Positions 7,543-19,182 of a stretch of DNA of 64,000 nt are shown here, in pieces (within the stretch, counting starts at the first letter, position 1; the number at the start of each line of letters is the position of its first letter). The DNA is from Moorella humiferrea (GTDB lineage Bacteria > Bacillota > DSM-521 > Neomoorellales > Neomoorellaceae): NCBI RefSeq assembly GCF_039233145.1, contig NZ_CP136419.1, positions 1,276,001 through 1,340,000 of the forward strand, given 5' to 3'. The position numbers were made by a program, and so were the translations under genes. The notes under the pieces are model-generated. The model worked only from the letters and a program-made list of their open reading frames with translations, was not told the origin of the DNA and ran no database searches.

Positions 7543-7798
7543 AACTGGTTACCCCCCCTGTAGTTAAGCTACATTTTATTTAACTATAATTCCAAAAACG
7601 GAGAAGGAGCGGAGATGATCCGGGGATGGTCCGTGTTTCCTACTTAAGTCAGATTTAACCGCGCCGGTTTAATCGTTTTTTGTCATGCCGCCGCAATGTT
7701 CGTGTCGCCGGCAGAGGATGAAAATGCCCCCCTACTGACCTCCGGCTGGCAAACAGCATAGGATATATGGAACGGTGCGGTGAAAGGGGGGAATGCAG
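7543..7798. other. Intergenic region between plsY and a small membrane protein gene
   Basis: About 250 bases without a gene. The only structure seen is a weak hairpin AACCG-CGC-CGGTT (7657-7669) followed by six T (7676-7681) on the plus strand. This could be an attenuator or the end of a short RNA, but no promoter upstream of it is clear. Confidence 0.3.
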
Positions 7799-8287
7799 AT
7801 GGAAGATCTCAGCCGCTTCTTCACTGTTATTGGCGCGGTCTTTGCGGCGGCCAAAGGTATTACCGACCAGGTCAAGGCCCGCTGGCCCTGGCTGGGGGAG
7901 CCGAGGGATGACCCCCAGGCGGAAAAACAGCGGGAGCTATGGGTAATTATATTTAACGCCGTTATCGCCGCCCTCCTGGCCGGCATGGCATCGATTGATG
8001 TCTTTGCCCTGCTGGGACTGAATGCCTTTACCGGGTTGAAGGCTGCTTATCCTGGTCTTTATTCATTGATTAATATGGTGGCTGTAGGCCTGATGTCTAC
8101 CTTTGGCAGTCCCTTCCTCCATGAGATCCTGTCGATCCTGATTGAATTCAAGGAAAATATTCGCTTGCGCAACCAGATGGCCACCTTACAGCTCCTGCCG
8201 GCGAAAAAAATCAGAACGCCCAGGGATGAAAATGATGAAAACTGTTTTACGAACCGGGCCGTGGACCAACTCAAATGGCCAGTTTAG
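7799..8287 (+). CDS. Small membrane protein of unknown function
   Basis: Not recognised. The 162-aa product has an amphipathic N-terminus, a polar linker, then two or three hydrophobic segments (about residues 45-70 and 85-110) and a charged C-terminal tail. The start ATG 7799 is seven bases after GGGGGG; an ATG six bases earlier is too close to that site. It converges on cbiO and overlaps its end by 17 bases. The size and layout recall holin-like or phage-derived membrane proteins, but no motif supports that. Confidence 0.7.
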   Translation: MEDLSRFFTVIGAVFAAAKGITDQVKARWPWLGEPRDDPQAEKQRELWVIIFNAVIAALLAGMASIDVFALLGLNAFTGLKAAYPGLYSLINMVAVGLMSTFGSPFLHEILSILIEFKENIRLRNQMATLQLLPAKKIRTPRDENDENCFTNRAVDQLKWPV

Positions 8288-9125
8288 ACCTGGAACGATA
8301 AGGAATGAGGCCCAGGAGCTCTTCTTTATTTTTGGGGACTGGCGCCGTTGCCGGCAGCCAGCCTTTATTTTTCAGGTCTTCGTAGACCTCCAGCAGCCAG
8401 GGCCGGGCCAGATCAGCAGTTTCCAGGAGGGTGGCATCGCTAAAGATTTCGGCCGGCGTCCCGGCACCGATTACCTGGCCGCGGGCCAGGACGTAGATAT
8501 AGTCGGCCCAGGTATAGGCTATGTCTACATCATGGGTGGATAAAATAATCGTCTTTCCCTGGCTGCTGATATCTGCCAGCAAGGCCATGACCTCCCGGGT
8601 TGAGCGCGGGTCCAGGTAGGCCGTCGGCTCATCAAAGATGATCAGCCGGGGTTCCATGGCCAGGACGCTGGCAATGGCCACCCGCTTTTTCTGGCCGTAG
8701 CTTAAAAAATGCGTCGGCTTATCCTGGAGGTCGGCGATACCCGTTACCGCCATGGCGGCTTCAACCCTTTGCCCTACCTCTTCCCTGCCCAGGCCCAGGT
8801 TTAATGGTCCAAAAGAAATTTCCTGGCGGACGCTGGCCGAAAAGAGCATGCTGTCGGGGTCTTGAAAGACGATGCCCACCTGCCGGCGTAAATCTGTTAA
8901 TGCTTTATGGCTGTAATTAATCCTGACTCCGGCAAAGTAGATACACCCCTCCTGGGGCCTTAAGATGCCGTTAAAATGAAGGAAAAGGGTTGACTTGCCA
9001 GCACCATTGGGACCCAGGACGGCAATCTTCTTGCCTTCAGGGATGCTCAAGGTAACATGCTGCAGGGCCCGGGTACCGTCAGGGTAAGTAAAGGAAACCC
9101 TCTCTGCTTCTAAAAGGGCGGCCAA
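8271..9125 (-). CDS. cbiO: Cobalt ECF transporter ATPase CbiO
   Basis: The ATPase of the CbiMNQO cobalt uptake system, 284 aa. It shows Walker A GPNGAGKST, Q-loop GIVFQDPDSMLFS, signature LSYGQKKRVAIASVL, Walker B LIIFDEPT and STHDVDIAY. GGAGGT lies seven bases before TTG 9125, which is therefore preferred over GTG 9134, which overlaps the ribosome site. It is the last gene of the cobK-cbiM-cbiN-cbiQ-cbiO unit and is expected to be repressed by cobalamin through the leader at 12185-12330. Confidence 0.95.
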   Translation of the reverse strand: MAALLEAERVSFTYPDGTRALQHVTLSIPEGKKIAVLGPNGAGKSTLFLHFNGILRPQEGCIYFAGVRINYSHKALTDLRRQVGIVFQDPDSMLFSASVRQEISFGPLNLGLGREEVGQRVEAAMAVTGIADLQDKPTHFLSYGQKKRVAIASVLAMEPRLIIFDEPTAYLDPRSTREVMALLADISSQGKTIILSTHDVDIAYTWADYIYVLARGQVIGAGTPAEIFSDATLLETADLARPWLLEVYEDLKNKGWLPATAPVPKNKEELLGLIPYRSRSKLAI

Positions 9126-9202
9126 AAGGTCCACCTCCGGTAGTCGGCATTGATTGGGGACATAAAAGGTACGTGGAGGAGCCGGTCTGCAGATGGCCGG
9201 TA

Positions 9203-9970
9203 TTATGTACGCAGCATTAAAATAACTAAAGCCAGGTCAAAGATGACGGCCAGGCATAAAAAGGGCCAGGAGAAAGGATATACAGCCTCCAGCACGCGCA
9301 GCTCTTCATCGTAGCCCCGGGCCGTCAGGGCGGTAAATAATTCCTGGGAGCGGCGGTAAGTCTTGATAAAAAGGTTGGCCGCCAGATGGCCCAGGGAATG
9401 ATAGGAAGTGCGCAGGGAGGCATAGCCCAGGCGGGAAGCCTGGGCGGTATAAATGTCGTTGACGGTCGCCAGCAGGACAAAAATAAAGCGGTAGGTCAGG
9501 CTGATTAAATCCACCAGCAGGGCCGGGAGGCGCAGTTGCCTGAGGACGGTAAGGATATCTACCATGGGAGTTGTTAGGGAAAGGAAATAAAGGCAGGCAG
9601 TAGCCCCCAGGGACTTGAGAAAAATTTTCCCGGCCAGGTGCATGCCGGCTGGGGTAACACCCAGGGTCCACTCCAGGAGGGTCACACCCTTAAGACCGGC
9701 CTGGGGCTGGTTGGAAATGGTGAGGGCGATCATGGCCACCCCCGCGACTAAAAAAGAAAAGGGCACCAGGATAAGCTGCAGGTAAAAACGGGCCGGGATG
9801 CCGGCGACCCCAATGGTAGCCCCGGCCATCAGGGCTATGATGATGGCTGGGATTAAAGGCTGGGGCGCCACCAGGGCGATCAGGAGGGTTACCAGGGCAA
9901 AGGCTACTTTTTCGCCCGGGTGGACGTTCTTTAACCGGTTGCTATAGGCATACTGGTCAATGCTGAACAT
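9203..9970 (-). CDS. cbiQ: Cobalt ECF transporter T component CbiQ
   Basis: A 255-aa membrane protein with four to five helices and the coupling segments QASRLGYASLRTSYHS and FTALTARGYD, whose Ala-Arg-Gly-type motifs bind the ATPase. The start ATG is immediately downstream of the cbiN stop. Order and spacing are the standard cbiMNQO layout; a 77-base gap separates it from cbiO. Confidence 0.95.
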   Translation of the reverse strand: MFSIDQYAYSNRLKNVHPGEKVAFALVTLLIALVAPQPLIPAIIIALMAGATIGVAGIPARFYLQLILVPFSFLVAGVAMIALTISNQPQAGLKGVTLLEWTLGVTPAGMHLAGKIFLKSLGATACLYFLSLTTPMVDILTVLRQLRLPALLVDLISLTYRFIFVLLATVNDIYTAQASRLGYASLRTSYHSLGHLAANLFIKTYRRSQELFTALTARGYDEELRVLEAVYPFSWPFLCLAVIFDLALVILMLRT

Positions 9971-10258
9971 TTACTTCTGCTCCCGCTGTTTCTTTCCTTT
10001 GCTGTAACCCAGGAAGTAGCAAACAATACCGCTGCCGATGGCAGCCTGGGCGGCAAAGAGAAAGGTTTCCACTTCCCCACTGGGCGGTTCCCAGACGGGT
10101 TTAAACCAGGGATCATAATCAGGCCGGATTTGGCTAATGGCCTCTTCCGCTTGATCATCAGCACCGGCAAACTCCCCGCTGCGGTGCATGAAGAGGGGGG
10201 CTGCTGCCAGGAGAATAACGATTAGGAGCAAGAAAAGATTTTTCTGGACGCTGCTCAT
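9971..10258 (-). CDS. cbiN: Cobalt transport protein CbiN
   Basis: A 95-aa protein with two transmembrane helices (about residues 7-24 and 65-84) around an extracytoplasmic loop containing FAGADDQAEEAI, the family signature. The ATG overlaps the cbiM stop as TAATG. CbiN contacts CbiM to open the cobalt site. Confidence 0.95.
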   Translation of the reverse strand: MSSVQKNLFLLLIVILLAAAPLFMHRSGEFAGADDQAEEAISQIRPDYDPWFKPVWEPPSGEVETFLFAAQAAIGSGIVCYFLGYSKGKKQREQK

Positions 10259-11040
10259 TATTTACGCACCTCCAGTTTACTACCGCCAGCCGCCAGGGTT
10301 TTGTCGTCTAAAATAGACAGTTCCTGCAGTTCGTTTTTATTATAGGCGGTCAGCAAATTAAAAACGACGACCGTTAAGATACCTTCGCTGACAGCCAGGG
10401 GTAGCTGGGTCACGGCAAAAATGCCCATAAATTTTAGCATAGACGCCAGTACCCCGCCGGGCTGGGCCGGGAAGGCCAGGGCCAACTGCAGGGAAGTGGT
10501 GACATAGGTCATCAGGTCCCCCAGGGTGGCGGCCAGGAAGACGGCCAGGGGAATTGAGCCGTTGAGCCTTCGCACCAGGCGGTAAAAACCGTAGGCTACA
10601 AAAGGACCCACCACGGCCATGGAAAAGGTGTTAGCTCCCAGGGTGCTTAAGCCGCCGTGGGCCAGCAAAAGGGCCTGGAAGAGGAGGACGATACCCCCCA
10701 GGATACTCATGGCTGCCGGGCCAAAGAGGATGGCCCCCAGACCAACCCCGGTGGGATGGGAACAGCTACCGGTTACTGAAGGGATTTTCAGGGCCGACAG
10801 GACAAAGGTATAGGCGCCGGCCAGGCCCAGGAGCATTTTCAGGCCGGGATTGCTTTTTACAGTTTGCTGGATGGACCGCAGGCCCCAAAGCCAGAAGGGC
10901 AACACGACGATATACCAGGCAGCGGCCCAGTTAAAAGGGAGAAATCCTTCGGCGATGTGCATGGCGTAGGCCGGCCGGTTGAGAACGGCCATGGTCAACA
11001 GGAAAAATATAAATATTATGGATGTACGCCGGAACACCAT
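10258..11040 (-). CDS. cbiM: Cobalt-binding S component CbiM
   Basis: A 260-aa membrane protein that binds Co(II). An N-terminal signal-like helix ends before MHIAEGFLP, the conserved metal-binding start (Met-His) of mature CbiM. The conserved [11 protein letters not shown]-type loop is present as [14 protein letters not shown], and the family [15 protein letters not shown] stretch follows. GGAGGTACAT precedes ATG 11040. The gene lies 18 bases after cobK. Confidence 0.96.
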
Positions 11041-11058: not shown

Positions 11059-11832
11059 CTATTTTCGAGGTATTAAGCGTTTTAATAGAAGAATGGCTTC
11101 CTCAATCGTGGCAACAGAATACAGATACCGAATGGAAGGTCGCTTAATTAACACCACCGGAATTTTCAGGGCCAAAGCGGCGGCAATTTTAGCTTCCGTA
11201 CCGCCGGCGGGTCCGGCATCCCGGGTGACGACAACACCGGCCTTATATGCCTTAAACATGACCTTATTCATTTCTTTGGAAAAAGGCCCCTGCATAGCAA
11301 TAATGTCCCGGGGTGTCAACCCCAGATCTTGGCACTTTTTAATTACCCTGTGTTCAGGCAACACCCTGACCACGATACGTTTATCTTTAAACAGGGGATT
11401 GTTAACGAATACTTCGAGGTTGTTGGTGCCTGTAGTTAAAAATATTGTGTCTCCTAGGTCGGCGGCAGCCCGGGCGGCTTCTTCCCAAGTCGTAACCTGG
11501 TGAATAAGGCTATCGCGGGGCAATTCCGTTTCCGGGCGTAAAAAACGCAGGTAAGGTATGGAATTTTGCCGGCACCAGGCCTCTAAGGCTAGGGAAAACC
11601 TGCCGGGATAAGGAAGGGTGGCGTCTATCACCGCTTCCGGTTGCCGACCGCCTTCCAGGGCGGCTAAATTGCCTTCCGTTAAGGGGACGGTTAAAATAAA
11701 AGTCGCCCCATCCTCCCGGGCCAACTGTTCGCCGTAGGTGCTGTCGGTCCAGGTAGCAACCTCATAGCCTTCCTGCCGCAGGCTACGTATTAATTGCCTT
11801 CCCTCGCCGGTACTACCCACTACTAAAATCAA
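11059..11832 (-). CDS. cobK: Precorrin-6A/cobalt-precorrin-6A reductase
   Basis: Reduces (cobalt-)precorrin-6A with NAD(P)H in corrin-ring synthesis; 257 aa. The N-terminal nucleotide-binding stretch ILVVGSTGEGRQL, VIDATLPYP, LRPETELPRD and the C-terminal VVTRDAGPAGGTEAKI are family hallmarks. The start is TTG 11832 with GGGGAGG upstream; an open frame extends to 11940 but runs through a leader hairpin and has no ribosome site. It is the first gene of the cobalt transport operon, which ties ring synthesis to cobalt uptake. Confidence 0.92.
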   Translation of the reverse strand: MILVVGSTGEGRQLIRSLRQEGYEVATWTDSTYGEQLAREDGATFILTVPLTEGNLAALEGGRQPEAVIDATLPYPGRFSLALEAWCRQNSIPYLRFLRPETELPRDSLIHQVTTWEEAARAAADLGDTIFLTTGTNNLEVFVNNPLFKDKRIVVRVLPEHRVIKKCQDLGLTPRDIIAMQGPFSKEMNKVMFKAYKAGVVVTRDAGPAGGTEAKIAAALALKIPVVLIKRPSIRYLYSVATIEEAILLLKRLIPRK

Positions 11833-11863
11833 AAAGCGGTATCCTCCCCGTAACAATTTAAAT

Positions 11864-11882
11864 CCCCGGCTTTTTGCCGGGG
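11864..11882 (-). terminator. Leader hairpin just upstream of cobK
   Basis: A perfect 7-bp stem CCCCGGC / GCCGGGG with an AAAAA loop on the minus strand, followed by ATTTAAATT. It sits 32 bases before the cobK start and could be an attenuator, or simply shape the ribosome site region. Confidence 0.5.
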
Positions 11883-11944
11883 AAGCCGTGGTGCCGCAAA
11901 AACAGGCGTGCCTAAAGAAACCACCTCCCCGGGTTCTCACCCTG

Positions 11945-12095
11945 GTGGATGGAGAACAGGCTTGCCTGTTGGCCGGGCATCATCGGTTGCGGCAAGTTCC
12001 CGCCTTCCGCGGCGTTTTGCCCAACCTCTCCCCTGCCGGCGGCGAAATTTAAGCCCGATCTTCTCGAGACCGCGCACCTTTCCCTATGTAATTTT
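11945..12095 (-). ncRNA. Structured leader element 2 of the cobK operon (class unassigned)
   Basis: On the minus strand this stretch can form an outer stem (12027-12031 with 11951-11955) enclosing a strong hairpin (11985-12026, stems GGTTG/CAACC, GGCAA/TTGCC and CGCC/GGCG) and a dyad AACAGGC/GCCTGTT (11955-11970). It carries AGGGAA near its 5' end, and GATGA followed by a CAGG...CCTG hairpin near its 3' end, echoes of the cobalamin aptamer core. It lies between two hairpins. Assignment as a degenerate second aptamer is inference. Confidence 0.4.
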
Positions 12096-12097
12096 AA

Positions 12098-12125
12098 ACC
12101 CTCTGCTCCTACATCAGCAGAGGGT
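12098..12125 (-). terminator. Hairpin after the cobalamin aptamer, probable expression-platform terminator
   Basis: A perfect 10-bp stem ACCCTCTGCT / AGCAGAGGGT with an 8-base loop, followed on the minus strand by TTTAAAATT. Located 60 bases after the aptamer end, in the position of a riboswitch terminator. The T-run is short. Confidence 0.6.
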
Positions 12126-12184
12126 ATGCTTGCCGTAAGTCCGGCCAACCACCCCCTATCCATCGTAGGGGTCAAGGTTTCCCC

Positions 12185-12330
12185 GGCAACCGGTATCCTG
12201 ACTCGGGATCATAGCTACCGCACCGCCTTCCCAGGTGTCCCCAGTGGCCTGATGGTGTTTCGCTCCTCCTTACAGTGGCGGGACCGTGTCAGCTTTACAC
12301 TGACTTCCCGGATTTGCCGGAGGCAATATT
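12185..12330 (-). promoter_or_regulatory. Cobalamin riboswitch
   Basis: The minus strand holds the class core in order: CCGGGAAG, a GTCAG...CTGAC stem, GGTCCCGCCACTGTAAGGAGG, GGCCACTGG, CCTGGGAAGGCGG, and GATCCCGAGTCAGGATACC. These are the conserved adenosylcobalamin-aptamer boxes (Rfam cobalamin family, by memory). It precedes cobK-cbiMNQO and should turn the operon down when cobalamin is plentiful. Confidence 0.95.
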
Positions 12331-12397
12331 CAGTTTAGTTTATTTTAGCATAATCCAAAGGTTATGTCTACGGCTTTTTACCGCCCTTTGCGGTATG

Positions 12398-13723: not shown

Positions 13724-14724
13724 TTCTTTCCTCCTTCTTTTTCCCGCAAGGCAGCCAGGATTCTTTCCGGGGTAACCGGCAGCTCCCTAATGCGCACCCC
13801 TACGGCATTGTATATGGCGTTGATGATGGCGGGCGCGGTGGGGATGGTGGCGGGCTCACCTACCCCTTTAGCGCCGTAGGGACCGGTAGGTTCATTGCTT
13901 TCTATAATCAAGGGCTGGATCTCGGGCATATCCAGGACGGTCGGAATGAGATAAGTGGAAAAAGAATTGTTGACGATGCGGCCCTGTTGCAGGTGCACCT
14001 TTTCCATAAGGGCCATGCCCAGTCCCTGGGCGATGCCGCCTTCAATCTGTCCTTCTACCCCGAGGCGATTTACGGCCCGGCCGACGTCATGGGCGGCTAT
14101 CAGCTTTAAAACCCGTACTTCCCCTGTTTCCGTATCCACTTCTACTTCCGCAATCTGCGTGGCAAAAGCGTAGGGCCAGTAGGGTGCCCCCTGGCCAGTT
14201 TCCGGGTCCACGGCCGTGGTGTGGGTGATGAAGGTTCCCTGGCCTACCAGGCGGCAACCGGCCAGGCGCGCCCGGGCGGCGGCCTCGGAATAGGATATCT
14301 GTTTCTGGGGATAACCTTTGACGTAAATTATACCTTCCCGGGCCGTCAGGCCGGCAACGGTATTGACCCCTAAGAGGAGGCGGGTATGTTCAAACAGGAC
14401 CTCCCTGGCCTGGCGGCAGGCCATTTTAACGGCGTTGCCCGAGGCATAGGTCTGACGGGTAGCAGCCGTCGTGCCGGCGTCGGGAGTGGTATCGGTATCG
14501 GCGGTAATCACCGTTACCCATTCATAGGGTATTCCCAGTTCCTCGGCGGCAATCTGGGCCAGAATGGTACTGGACCCCTGGCCGCAGTCCACCGCGCCGC
14601 TGCGCACCGTGGCCGTGCCGTCGTCATGAATCTCCACAGTGGCCGTGGAAACGTCGGGAAAACCGTTGCCGTATCCCGTTCCGTAAAAAATACAGGCCAT
14701 GCCGGTGCCGCGCTTTTTACTCAT
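13720..14724 (-). CDS. Molybdenum hydroxylase, medium molybdopterin subunit (NdhM-like; C-terminal half of XdhA)
   Basis: 334 aa, matching the second half of xanthine-dehydrogenase-type molybdopterin subunits. TVRSGAVDCGQGSSTILAQ binds the cofactor; GAKGVGEPATIPTAPAI holds the catalytic Glu. The start ATG 14724 overlaps the previous gene's end by 8 bases (ATGAGTAA) and has GGAGG beside it, so this is a real second gene, coupled to the first, rather than a random frameshift. The size pair 427/334 mirrors the two molybdopterin subunits of nicotinate dehydrogenase of Eubacterium barkeri, where the chain is naturally split. The substrate is more likely a purine here. Confidence 0.88.
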   Translation of the reverse strand: MSKKRGTGMACIFYGTGYGNGFPDVSTATVEIHDDGTATVRSGAVDCGQGSSTILAQIAAEELGIPYEWVTVITADTDTTPDAGTTAATRQTYASGNAVKMACRQAREVLFEHTRLLLGVNTVAGLTAREGIIYVKGYPQKQISYSEAAARARLAGCRLVGQGTFITHTTAVDPETGQGAPYWPYAFATQIAEVEVDTETGEVRVLKLIAAHDVGRAVNRLGVEGQIEGGIAQGLGMALMEKVHLQQGRIVNNSFSTYLIPTVLDMPEIQPLIIESNEPTGPYGAKGVGEPATIPTAPAIINAIYNAVGVRIRELPVTPERILAALREKEGGKK

Positions 14725-16000
14725 CCTCCATCCCTCCCGGTATTAATTCAGCCGGAGACCAACCGGCAGCCCTGGCTGCCTGAAGCATGGTTGCGGTTAA
14801 ACCGACGCTGCTTTCCAGGACCTGGCCCGTCGCGGTGACATCCCCCTGGCGGAAGGCATTGAGCCAGCGGAAGGTAAAGGGATGAATGCCCAGGCGTTCG
14901 GCCAATTCATCCATCTGGCTTTCATATGCCAGGGGCGGTTGGGTGGCGCCGAAGCCGCGCATGGCGCCGGTAAATGGATTGTTGGTATAAACGGCATAGG
15001 CATCAATCTTGACATTAGGTACAACATATGGGCCGGTGGCATGGATGGCAGCCTTGCGCAGGATTTTAGGGGCCCAGGAAGCGTAGGCGCCGCTGTCGCC
15101 GATTATTTCCGCTTCCAGGGCCGTCAGCTTCCCCTCCCTGGTGGCACCGGTCTTATAGCGCATGATCATGGGATGGCGTTTGCTGTGGGCCAGGAAAGAT
15201 TCCTCCCGGGTAAGGACCATCTTTGCCGGCCGCCTGGTATGAACGGCCAGCAGGGCTACCAGGGTTTGCAGGGTCATGTCTTCCCGGCCGCCGAAGGCAC
15301 CGCCGACTGCCGGAGCCACGATGCGGATGCGGTCCTGGTGCCAGCCCAGCACCCGGGCAACTTCCGTCCGATCCCAGTGGACGTACTGGGTGGCCACATA
15401 AATTACCAGGTGACCGCGCTCGTCCAGCCGGGCCACGGCGGCCTCAGGCTGGAGGAAAGCGTGGTCCAGGAGTTGGGTGCGGTAGGTATTTTCCACAACA
15501 ACGTCGGCGGCGGCAAAGCCGGCTTCCACGTCGCCTTTACGGATGGGCAGGTGGTAAATAATATTGTCCCGGTCGGGATGAACCCGGGGGGCTCCGGGTT
15601 TAAGGGCTTCCAAAGGATCTAAAATGGCCGGCAGCTCCTCGTAGGTTATTTTTACTTTAGCTGCCCCGGCCCGGGCGGCGGCCGGGGTGGTGGCCCCCAC
15701 CAGGGCGACGACGTCGTTCACCGAGCGCACTTCGTCCCGGGCCAGGACAGGCATGTCCTGGTAAACGACGCCCTGGCCGTTATGGCCGGGAATATCCCGG
15801 GCAGTCAGGACGCAGAGGACCCCCGGCACCTCCAGGGCGGCCGAGGTGTCAATGTTGATGATCCGGGCATGGGCGTAGGGGCTGCGGACGGCCTGGCCGT
15901 AGATCATCCCCGGGAAATTGATGTCGGCGGGGTAAAGGGCCCGGCCGGTGACCTTGGACCGGGCATCTACCCTGGGCGGGGATGTACCGATGAGAGACAT
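14717..16000 (-). CDS. Molybdenum hydroxylase, large molybdopterin subunit (NdhL-like; N-terminal half of XdhA)
   Basis: 427 aa, beginning with the Ald_Xan_dh N-terminal domain (VDARSKVTGRALYPADI) and then the first molybdopterin domain with TQYVHWDRTEVARVLG, VGGAFGGREDM and GAMRGFGATQPPLAYE. It ends at TATMLQAARAAGW, the normal junction between the two Mo-binding domains. AGGAG lies nine bases before ATG 16000. No [2Fe-2S] or FAD subunit gene is next to it, so partners must be encoded elsewhere. Transcription starts behind the guanine-class riboswitch. Confidence 0.9.
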   Translation of the reverse strand: MSLIGTSPPRVDARSKVTGRALYPADINFPGMIYGQAVRSPYAHARIINIDTSAALEVPGVLCVLTARDIPGHNGQGVVYQDMPVLARDEVRSVNDVVALVGATTPAAARAGAAKVKITYEELPAILDPLEALKPGAPRVHPDRDNIIYHLPIRKGDVEAGFAAADVVVENTYRTQLLDHAFLQPEAAVARLDERGHLVIYVATQYVHWDRTEVARVLGWHQDRIRIVAPAVGGAFGGREDMTLQTLVALLAVHTRRPAKMVLTREESFLAHSKRHPMIMRYKTGATREGKLTALEAEIIGDSGAYASWAPKILRKAAIHATGPYVVPNVKIDAYAVYTNNPFTGAMRGFGATQPPLAYESQMDELAERLGIHPFTFRWLNAFRQGDVTATGQVLESSVGLTATMLQAARAAGWSPAELIPGGMEDE

Positions 16001-16033: not shown

Positions 16034-16094
16034 AGGCAACCGCGCTTTCGGCAACGAAGAATCGCCTTCGTAGCCGGGCAATTTGCGGTTGCCT
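16034..16094 (-). terminator. Riboswitch terminator hairpin overlapping the aptamer
   Basis: On the minus strand AGGCAACCGC (16094-16085) pairs with GCGGTTGCCT (16043-16034). Inside it, CGGCTACGAAG (16076-16066) pairs with CTTCGTTGCCG (16059-16049) with one mismatch. The hairpin is followed by AAATTTTTAT. Its 5' strands are the P3 5' strand and the P1 3' strand of the aptamer, so terminator and aptamer exclude each other. Confidence 0.7.
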
Positions 16095-16134
16095 GGTAGA
16101 GACCCTCAGTCCGTATTGCTGAGGATATACGAAG
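16066..16134 (-). promoter_or_regulatory. Purine riboswitch aptamer, guanine class
   Basis: Minus-strand CTTCGTA...TACGAAG forms P1. P2 is TCCTCAG...CTGAGG, J2/3 is GTCTCTACC (consensus GNNUCUACC), P3 is GGCAA/TTGCC with a 7-base loop, and J3/1 is GGCTACG. The C in GGCTA at the specificity position marks the guanine/hypoxanthine class rather than adenine. Total length is 69 bases as for xpt. It is followed by the mutually exclusive terminator. Confidence 0.9.
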
Positions 16135-16140
16135 TTAATA

Positions 16141-16146
16141 ATTATA
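16141..16146 (-). promoter_or_regulatory. Predicted -10 box of the Mo-hydroxylase operon
   Basis: TATAAT on the minus strand lies 7 bases before the aptamer 5' end. A clear -35 is not seen (ATTTTA/TTTTAG at the right distance is weak). Confidence 0.45.
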
Positions 16147-16175
16147 GTTCGACCAGTACCGGCTAAAATCCTGCT

Positions 16176-17606: not shown

Positions 17607-19182
17607 CACTAGCGTTGCATAAAAATTTTTAGCACAGTGCAAGGCAATATATGGAAGGCAGAATATGTTATATAATAACATTAATGGTGTATACAACCAT
17701 GCATTTTCTTCCTTCACTGGCCAAAGGACTTAGGTTATCAGGGGTAGTCCTTATCCACATATTGCCATATAAAGTTGCTTAAAGAACTAAGGGGTCATAA
17801 GTTACGTCGTTTAAATAATCAGCTTCGCCAGCTAAAACTTGCTTTACTAAATCCTGATAGATGCCTTCATAGTCTATCTTGTGCCGCCCATAAGACCTTC
17901 GTTTGGGTTTACGGTGCAGGCTTTGGACGAAGAAGGTAAAGGGCTCATATAGACAGGTGCGGATTAAACGTTTAATAGTGAGCAATGGTCCTTGATAGCC
18001 GGCCTTTAATTGCAGCATAACCATCAGGCAGTAGGTTATTAGCGCTATGAAGAGCTGGTTTTCTACAGCCTGTTCGCTTTTACCATAAAAATGTTTCACC
18101 TGCAGGTGTTGTTTCATCCATTTGAAGAAGAGTTCTATCTGCCAGCGCTTACGATAAATCTCGCTTAATTCTTCCGCCGGTAACTCGAAATCATTGGTGA
18201 CTATAATTACCGGTTGCCCTTGGGTATCTTCGGTTGTTATCAGCCGTAAAGGGTGCTTCATTTTGGTAACTCCATCTTTGCCAAGGTAAACAAGCTGTTC
18301 CTTTTTAACCTTGCTGTCAGGGTTTACCGGCAACTCGGCGATTATTTCTACCAGAGCATTACCCTTTAAGCGGCTGGCAAAGCGGACGCCTTCTTCACAG
18401 TATCTGTCAAACTTCTTGTAATCGACATAGCCGCGGTCAAAGACGTTTAAGGCTTCTTCTTCCTCTACTACGAGGGTATCCATCTGGGTTTTATCTGCCT
18501 TCCGGGCCGGGGTGACAATTGCTTTATCAGGTAGAACCTCTTCTTCACAGAACTTTAAGCGCAGGTGGAGTTTTATCCCGCTTTTAGTCCTACGAAACTC
18601 GGCCCAGAGGTACTGGGTAAAACAGAGACTAATGATAGTGGAATCGATGAGGTAAATACGTCCTGCGGTATTTCTTAAGTTTTCAAAGCCGATTTCCCGG
18701 CCTATCCGGGTGGTGAGATGGCTGAATAATAGCCGGATGAATTGCGGCGATAAATCCCTTAAACGGCGCGCTATCTGGGAGAAACTGATACTCTCTAAAT
18801 TGATAGCCAGGCTAAATTGCGGGTCATTGAAGCTATTGCTGATATCCCGCAAGCCATTAAGTTGTTCCAGCTGAGCGAAGGCTATTAGTTTAATGAGTTG
18901 AAGGGAATTTAGCTTCTTAGCGTACTTATCGACCCCCATACCGGCGGTTAACTGCCAAAAATAGTCGTTAGAAACTGGAGCAAACAGTTGATGAAATGTG
19001 GATAATGTGGTATCCTTACCTTGCATTTGGGCCTCCTTATGTTAGAGGTTGGGGCAAGGACTACCCTCAATCTCTAGTATAAGGAGTTTTTTCTTGCAAG
19101 GCTAGGTTATTTCAGGAATTTGGCTGTTTTTTGGGCGTTATTTCCCTTGACAAGTTTATTTTTTCTTTATGCAACGCTAGTG
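17607..19182 (-). mobile_element. Intact insertion sequence, IS4-type DDE family, 1576 bp
   Basis: The ends are perfect 17-bp inverted repeats CACTAGCGTTGCATAAA (17607-17623 and complement 19166-19182), with 9-bp target duplications outside. It holds one transposase gene on the minus strand and about 150 bases of non-coding sequence on each side. Intact ends, an open transposase and perfect duplicates suggest a recent insertion. Confidence 0.93.
17779..19026 (-). CDS. IS4-family DDE transposase
   Basis: 415 aa. The RNase-H-like catalytic triad is visible: Asp in RIYLIDSTIISL, Asp in NVFDRGYVD, and Glu in the YRKRWQIELFFKWMKQHL block, the Y-R-E-K signature of IS4 transposases. The N-terminal DUF4372-like segment (FHQLFAPVSNDYFWQL) is common in this subgroup. 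AAGGAGG precedes ATG 19026. The frame is complete, so the element could be active. Confidence 0.95.
   Translation of the reverse strand: MQGKDTTLSTFHQLFAPVSNDYFWQLTAGMGVDKYAKKLNSLQLIKLIAFAQLEQLNGLRDISNSFNDPQFSLAINLESISFSQIARRLRDLSPQFIRLLFSHLTTRIGREIGFENLRNTAGRIYLIDSTIISLCFTQYLWAEFRRTKSGIKLHLRLKFCEEEVLPDKAIVTPARKADKTQMDTLVVEEEEALNVFDRGYVDYKKFDRYCEEGVRFASRLKGNALVEIIAELPVNPDSKVKKEQLVYLGKDGVTKMKHPLRLITTEDTQGQPVIIVTNDFELPAEELSEIYRKRWQIELFFKWMKQHLQVKHFYGKSEQAVENQLFIALITYCLMVMLQLKAGYQGPLLTIKRLIRTCLYEPFTFFVQSLHRKPKRRSYGRHKIDYEGIYQDLVKQVLAGEADYLNDVTYDPLVL

Follow-up and report, generated by a model that had tools for sequence, protein, structure and literature searches.

On comparative evidence, the canonical cobalamin riboswitch in the leader of the cbiJ/cobK-cbiMNQO operon of Moorella humiferrea is accompanied in tandem by a second control element, which is real, conserved and cobalamin-derived. 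The sequences establish the homology and the covariation of this element, hereafter element 2, as well as its conservation, its tandem placement, its association with genes and its mutually exclusive pairings. We lean towards regarding it as a variant corrinoid-class riboswitch that would make the leader a two-input gate on cobalt uptake, in which a canonical OFF switch is followed by a putative ON switch. An earlier sequence-only reading of the same DNA, which had proposed a second, diverged aptamer and two-input control, is as a whole partly supported by the present comparisons.

The window, by which we mean the whole 64,000-nucleotide stretch analysed, belongs to a genome assembled as a single 2.67-Mb contig. 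The leader runs on the minus strand of the window from 12346 to 11833, in the order canonical aptamer, T1, element 2 (12084–11901), T3 and the cbiJ/cobK-cbiMNQO genes; all its features given below are on this strand. It contains two structured units and the terminator-like platforms T1, T2 and T3. About 500 nt lie between a putative promoter-like TAGACA-17-TAAAAT (12342–12370), found by a consensus scan and accompanied by a similar sequence in aligned relatives, and the likely TTG start at position 11832, a length already read from the sequence. The canonical aptamer, formerly placed at 12185–12330, matched the whole RF00174 model at 12171–12346 with 92.6 bits. The T1 hairpin (ACCCTCTGC/GCAGAGGGT), read from the sequence at exactly the positions first proposed (12098–12125) and followed by a T-rich tail, would be the first expression platform; it was kept in all 10 aligned orthologous leaders and was not detected by the terminator scan of the window genome. 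Element 2 begins 86 nt after the canonical aptamer, in a second highly folded stretch which proved to be real, the segment 12090–11860 folding at -109 kcal/mol (z = -3.9 versus dinucleotide shuffles). The last hairpin, T3, is intrinsic-terminator-like and conserved in the genus; its presence was borne out, with a T-rich tail and, in the terminator scan, an extent of 11863–11883 and 8 pairs instead of 11864–11882 and 7 bp. The ribosome-binding site GGGGAGG, read from the sequence at 11843–11849, precedes cbiJ/cobK (11059–11832, precorrin-6x reductase, PF02571, E = 1.1e-60) and the cobalt-uptake genes cbiM, cbiN, cbiQ and cbiO (8271–11040; PF01891, PF02553, PF02361 and PF00005). On the plus strand, a 164-aa ORF without Pfam match (7793–8287) adjoins the cbi operon. 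Elsewhere in the window, the minus strand carries a Purine riboswitch aptamer (16051–16152, RF00167, 79.1 bits) about 50 nt upstream of the ORF 14717–16000, which by eye resembles a xanthine dehydrogenase subunit, and a 415-aa ORF (17779–19026) resembling by eye an IS4-type transposase.

Element 2 is closed by the helix P1, whose 5' strand (GGGAAAGG) lies at 12077–12084 and whose 3' strand (CCTGTTCTC) lies at 11952–11960, within the region of the T2 hairpin. The register of P1 was taken from the RF00174 alignment of the relative L131, together with pair counts and a partner-swap test and, for the 3' strand, in-silico competition. The AGGGAA motif at about 12086–12080, which had been listed among elements in cobalamin-like order, overlaps the P1 5' strand and is not the cobalamin GGGAA box. 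The H5 hairpin (12053–12074) has a CGAG loop and ends before the conserved joining strand CTTAAAT (12047–12053), the counterpart, in the alignments and the RF00174 register, of the cobalamin uuAAaaGGGAA. The P5-like arm (11985–12026) comes next, flanked by what is, by the usual consensus, a kink-turn; its short strand (GGGGA-GA-GG, 12025–12033) and long strand (CC-GAU-GA-UGCCC, 11975–11986) were read from the sequence. The GATGA noted earlier does exist, at 11984–11980, and forms part of this long strand, while the CAGG/CCTG elements, also present, turned out to be strands of T2 and P1. The T2, or P13-like, hairpin occupies 11901–11970, supported by alignment and pair counts as well as the swap test, and its U-run is weak in the window genome. 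It includes CCGGGGAGGTGG (11921–11932), the putative antiterminator strand for T3.

The helices were evaluated in A8, an alignment of 19 diverse copies. For H5, the P5-like arm and T2 taken together, 83.2% of the cells were paired, as compared to 70.6% after shuffling, and 91 cells had changed on both sides, as compared to 34.9, in sequences that are related and do not represent independent events. None of 500 shuffles reached the A8 value for pairing or for both-side changes, and sliding the partners reduced pairing to 31–51%. When T2 was replaced by the kink-turn stem, the values were 84.5% versus 65.1% paired, and 99 versus 35 both-side cells. Changes on both sides affected seven of the eight pairs in H5 and eight of eight in the P5-like arm. 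Tests of own against swapped partners in 16 representatives gave p <= 5e-5 for H5, T2, the P5-like arm (with cross energies capped) and the stem flanking the kink-turn; the result for P1 was modest (p = 0.012), and at fixed columns P1 displayed one-sided changes and no both-side changes. The GA/GA signature of the kink-turn was present at fixed columns in 10 of the 19 copies. Covariation, whose absence had been named in the sequence-only reading as an argument against a second aptamer, was thus strong; together with homology through intermediates and conservation across families it upholds the proposal of a second, diverged cobalamin-class element.

These intermediates connect element 2 to the family RF00174, for which the gathering threshold is 31.5 bits. 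The copy of genome G139 scored 50.3 bits as Cobalamin when isolated and 59.0 bits with its flanks, and the copy of G143 scored 32.7 bits in context. In the RF00174 alignment of the G139 copy, the 5' part of the cobalamin fold was represented by AGAAUAGGUG-hairpin-CUUAAAU, and the 3' strand of the outer helix by CCUAUUC. The outer helix, the 5' hairpin with its UUAAA strand, the GAUGA region and the P13-like hairpin were all found, in the register from L131. Because the G139 and G143 copies score as Cobalamin, element 2 is, on these alignments, a diverged, core-altered cobalamin-class element. Among 20 isolated copies, 19, including that of the window, had no RF00174 match at E <= 1, and none of the other riboswitch families in Rfam (NiCo, Moco, T-box, SAM-I etc.) reached its gathering score with element 2; the search with element 2 alone returned sub-threshold chance matches only. 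An Rfam scan of the second folded stretch, advised in the sequence-only reading, gave nothing significant in the window genome. By inspection the window copy is devoid of the conserved core, i.e., P4 GGUG-AAUCC, ACUGU, CCACUG/GGGAAGG and the B12 box AGCCAGGA. The core appeared partly kept in G139, G143, G025, G105, G170 and G067, the last four retaining P4-like and ACUGU-like boxes.

Among nine congeneric genomes, the segment 11964–12084 showed 90.7% identity, as compared to 86.7% for the canonical aptamer and 64.9% for the third codon positions of cobK; by this measure, element 2 is no less conserved in the genus than the canonical aptamer. A DNA search of 22 genomes recovered it in nine of the 11 genomes of the genus, the two others being 84% and 58% complete, and in one genome from another genus of the family; there was no match in the 10 remaining genomes of the order. 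Covariance models were then used. Of 13 regions picked for holding another cobalamin aptamer match, all of them with RF00174, 12 yielded diverged copies with model R1, which was built from 10 orthologues. Beyond the genus and G011, R1 gave weak matches in G402, where the match resembles coding DNA by eye, and in G335, a match of which overlaps a canonical aptamer and was rejected. Model R2, made from the 12 diverged copies, matched 22 of 398 genomes of the phylum at E <= 0.1, and R3, made from A8, matched 37 of the 398 at E <= 0.01. The R3 copies above about 40 bits represented at least 14 families and 18 genera, matches overlapping canonical aptamers having been set aside (e.g., G054:C1, G143:C61:2001, G108, G335, G071 and G009:3261967). 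The match G010:C1:2847223 and the weak R3 matches in G370, G347, G129, G157, G017 and G037:C48 lay outside the examined set. A pattern scan of named contigs produced 15 matches and added Desulfofundulus thermobenzoicus, with a copy again located after a cobalamin aptamer. Six of the 15 were tested with R2, and L084, L092 and L093 were judged to be chance matches because R2 found none at the pattern site. An R2 match in G156 (L117) was dropped as it resembles coding DNA. Alignment A4 (MAFFT, both Moorella groups, P2 region misaligned) and alignments A5 and A7 (cmsearch, antisense matches) were kept out of the counts.

The position behind a canonical riboswitch was highly recurrent. All 17 strong copies held out from model building (outside A8 and the Moorella clade) had RF00174 on the same strand 87–198 nt upstream. 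RF00174 was present in 16 of a first set of 20 loci, the exceptions being the solo loci L112, L113 and L116 and the coding chance match L117, and in 17 of a second set of 20, the exceptions being L169, L170 and L116 (solo copies of G025, G071 and G058:C13). In G025 and G071, which belong to the same genus, the solo element lies directly before cbiM, with no RF00174 match within 1500 nt upstream. Several other arrangements were observed. In G178 (C50:26785-27177; L126 and L128), two copies of element 2 follow one cobalamin aptamer in series, forming a triple arrangement. In L066 (G011:C45:71800-75800), a cobalamin aptamer (687–871), element 2 (944–1124) and a second full cobalamin aptamer (1297–1487) are found within 800 nt. 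A further B12-box-like fragment (CCTGAGCCAGGAGTCCTGCTC) is present 3' of the element-2 terminator in L061, L059 and L065. The canonical aptamer of L037 (G005) is enlarged by a hairpin-like insert of about 80 nt, absent from the other nine leaders. Four reduced leaders, L108 (G004), L114 (G263), L119 (G388) and L120 (G057), show a cobalamin aptamer and then a T2-like hairpin and a GGGAGGUG-like strand, with little or no aptamer core.

The genes located downstream were compared for 43 loci in all. Directly downstream of the copies not belonging to group 2, cbiJ or cbiM was found in 23 of 31 cases, as compared to none of the 12 Moorella-clade group-2 paralogues, which by eye precede large exported proteins and lipoproteins as well as, in the window genome, genes of other kinds. 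In 40 cobalamin riboswitches devoid of element 2, taken from eight of the genomes, a CbiJ or CbiM relative was present within about 3 kb in eight cases, two of which were weak; L225, a neighbour with its own leader, would be the ninth and was not counted. The difference between 23/31 and 8/40 corresponds to a Fisher p of 8e-6 when relatedness is ignored. None of the 14 families lacked a copy before cbiJ or cbiM. The recurring pair of a canonical and a remodelled unit, mostly at cobalt-uptake genes, suggests that a second, uncatalogued RNA signal governs these genes.

Since the T2 hairpin uses the 3' strand of P1 as well, P1 and T2 are predicted to be mutually exclusive, and this sharing is, on the predicted pairings, an ON-switch geometry. 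At nine loci folded in silico, the minimum free energy (MFE) structure of the nascent prefix contained at least five P1 pairs in eight, and that of the full segment contained no P1 pair in any of the nine. For the 10 orthologous Moorella-type leaders, the prefix MFE structure had at least six P1 pairs in five, three to four in two and none in three, and the full fold had no P1 pair in nine of 10; the window copy formed eight P1 pairs, and only one when the segment was one base shorter, so that the outcome depends on the segment start. In the T3-less copies that were read, T2 ends in a U-run. In all 20 loci with T3, the 3' side of T2 contains the conserved GGGAGGUG, to which the T3 5' arm is complementary; this pairing showed no covariation beyond conservation in these 20 loci (p = 0.14). 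T2 also carries, in this way, a strand which could disarm T3. In both layouts, with and without T3, formation of T2 would correspond to the OFF state and formation of P1 to the ON state.

We propose the following organization. The first unit is the canonical cobalamin riboswitch, which has a hairpin to itself and would be switched OFF by adenosylcobalamin. The second is a remodelled descendant of the cobalamin aptamer, which keeps the outer helix, the 5' hairpin, the kink-turn arm and the P13-like hairpin and which, in most copies including that of the window, appears to have lost the recognisable parts of the ligand-binding core. As long as P1 is held, T2 would be blocked, which would leave the GGGGAGGUGG strand available for pairing with the T3 5' arm, and cobK-cbiMNQO would be transcribed. 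When P1 is lost, T2 would form and hide the GGGGAGGUGG strand, T3 would form and transcription would stop. If, as we infer, P1 is stabilised by a ligand, whether a corrinoid, a precursor of the corrin or cobalt, the two units together would form a NOT A AND B gate: cobalt uptake would be switched on only if there is little of the finished coenzyme and the second signal is also there. T2 may also act without an aptamer, since L108, L114, L119 and L120 keep a T2-like hairpin in spite of the loss of the core.

As to the nature of the element, our tentative reading, a possible one on the present data, is that element 2 is an uncatalogued, widespread ON-type class derived from the cobalamin aptamer, which senses another signal and forms the NOT A AND B gate with the canonical aptamer. 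The signal may be a corrin precursor (cobinamide, cobyric acid or cobalt-precorrin) or cobalt itself. The opposite sign could also be considered because, in the repressing model of Procknow in a 2023 paper on corrinoid riboswitches, it is the formation of P13 that brings about termination (PMC10653944). In one rival reading, element 2 would be a second OFF switch for the same ligand, binding a corrinoid and repressing, and giving a steeper or wider dose response in the manner of a pseudo-cooperative doublet. Two intermediates still score as Cobalamin, T2 hides the T3 antiterminator strand in the way P13 does in the repressing P. megaterium metE riboswitch, where P13 promotes termination (PMC10653944), and 26 AdoCbl doublets are counted in a tandem riboswitch review (PMC9481103). 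We nevertheless consider a second OFF switch unlikely, as in most copies the core is either altered or missing and the strand shared by P1 and T2 corresponds to an ON geometry.

The graded loss, from the near-canonical G139 copy to the core-less L108, L114, L119 and L120, and the two adjacent copies in G178 would also be expected if a tandem-duplicated cobalamin riboswitch were decaying, the second copy losing its aptamer and the backup hairpins remaining. This is quite doubtful in view of the identity of the core-side part within the genus, which is no lower than that of the canonical aptamer, of the strong covariation in stems away from the terminator and of the existence of copies in 14 families, also as solo units. 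It is improbable that the choice between T2 and T3 is made by an L7Ae-type protein on the kink-turn or by the 30S subunit on GGGAGGUG, which is nearly invariant and Shine-Dalgarno-like: the fixed GA/GA signature of 10 of the 19 copies would fit such a protein- or ribosome-responsive leader, but pairing with T3 can account for GGGAGGUG and the tandem position behind a cobalamin aptamer speaks for the corrinoid pathway. By eye no consistent start codon follows GGGAGGUG, and its interpretation as a Shine-Dalgarno sequence or part of a leader peptide was dropped for this reason.

Leaders of this kind are usually annotated with the Rfam cobalamin model, by which only the first aptamer was seen in nearly all the leaders tested. 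In at least 14 families, element 2 occurs downstream of a cobalamin riboswitch, mostly at cobalt-uptake operons, and has a predicted ON geometry. It would show the rebuilding of a riboswitch fold after tandem duplication, would offer a natural case of cobalt uptake controlled by two signals and would supply a large set of test RNAs. No description of element 2 was found in searches of the openly accessible literature. In the tandem riboswitch review, a pair of NiCo and AdoCbl riboswitches is described as expected but absent (PMC9481103).

Compared to RF00174 (clan CL00101), element 2 has the same outer helix, 5' hairpin with uuAAa strand, GAUGA region and P13-like hairpin, whereas the P4 and ACUGU boxes are missing or altered in many copies and the closing helix shares a strand with a terminator hairpin. 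The AdoCbl doublets are likewise tandem corrinoid-class units with separate platforms; the review counts 26 of them, whereas most copies of element 2 are invisible to RF00174 (PMC9481103). The A. halodurans cobT riboswitch, presented in the 2023 paper as the first activating corrinoid riboswitch and responding to cobinamide, resembles element 2 in that an aptamer-side helix and the terminator are exclusive, an arrangement which in element 2 would also activate (PMC10653944). It differs in being a single unit, classed in that paper as a cobalamin riboswitch, with P13 as the competing helix, whereas in element 2 the competing helix is P1 and the element usually stands behind a canonical riboswitch. 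By analogy, the closest system in logic is the TPP/HMP-PP (thiS motif) tandem, in which an end-product riboswitch with its own terminator comes first and a terminator-embedded switch for a precursor comes second (PMC6478431). The likeness extends to a second unit tied to a related pathway and to the order OFF then ON. It differs in that the second ligand of the TPP/HMP-PP tandem is proven (PMC6478431) and in that the two RNAs of the cobalamin leaders go back to one and the same family.
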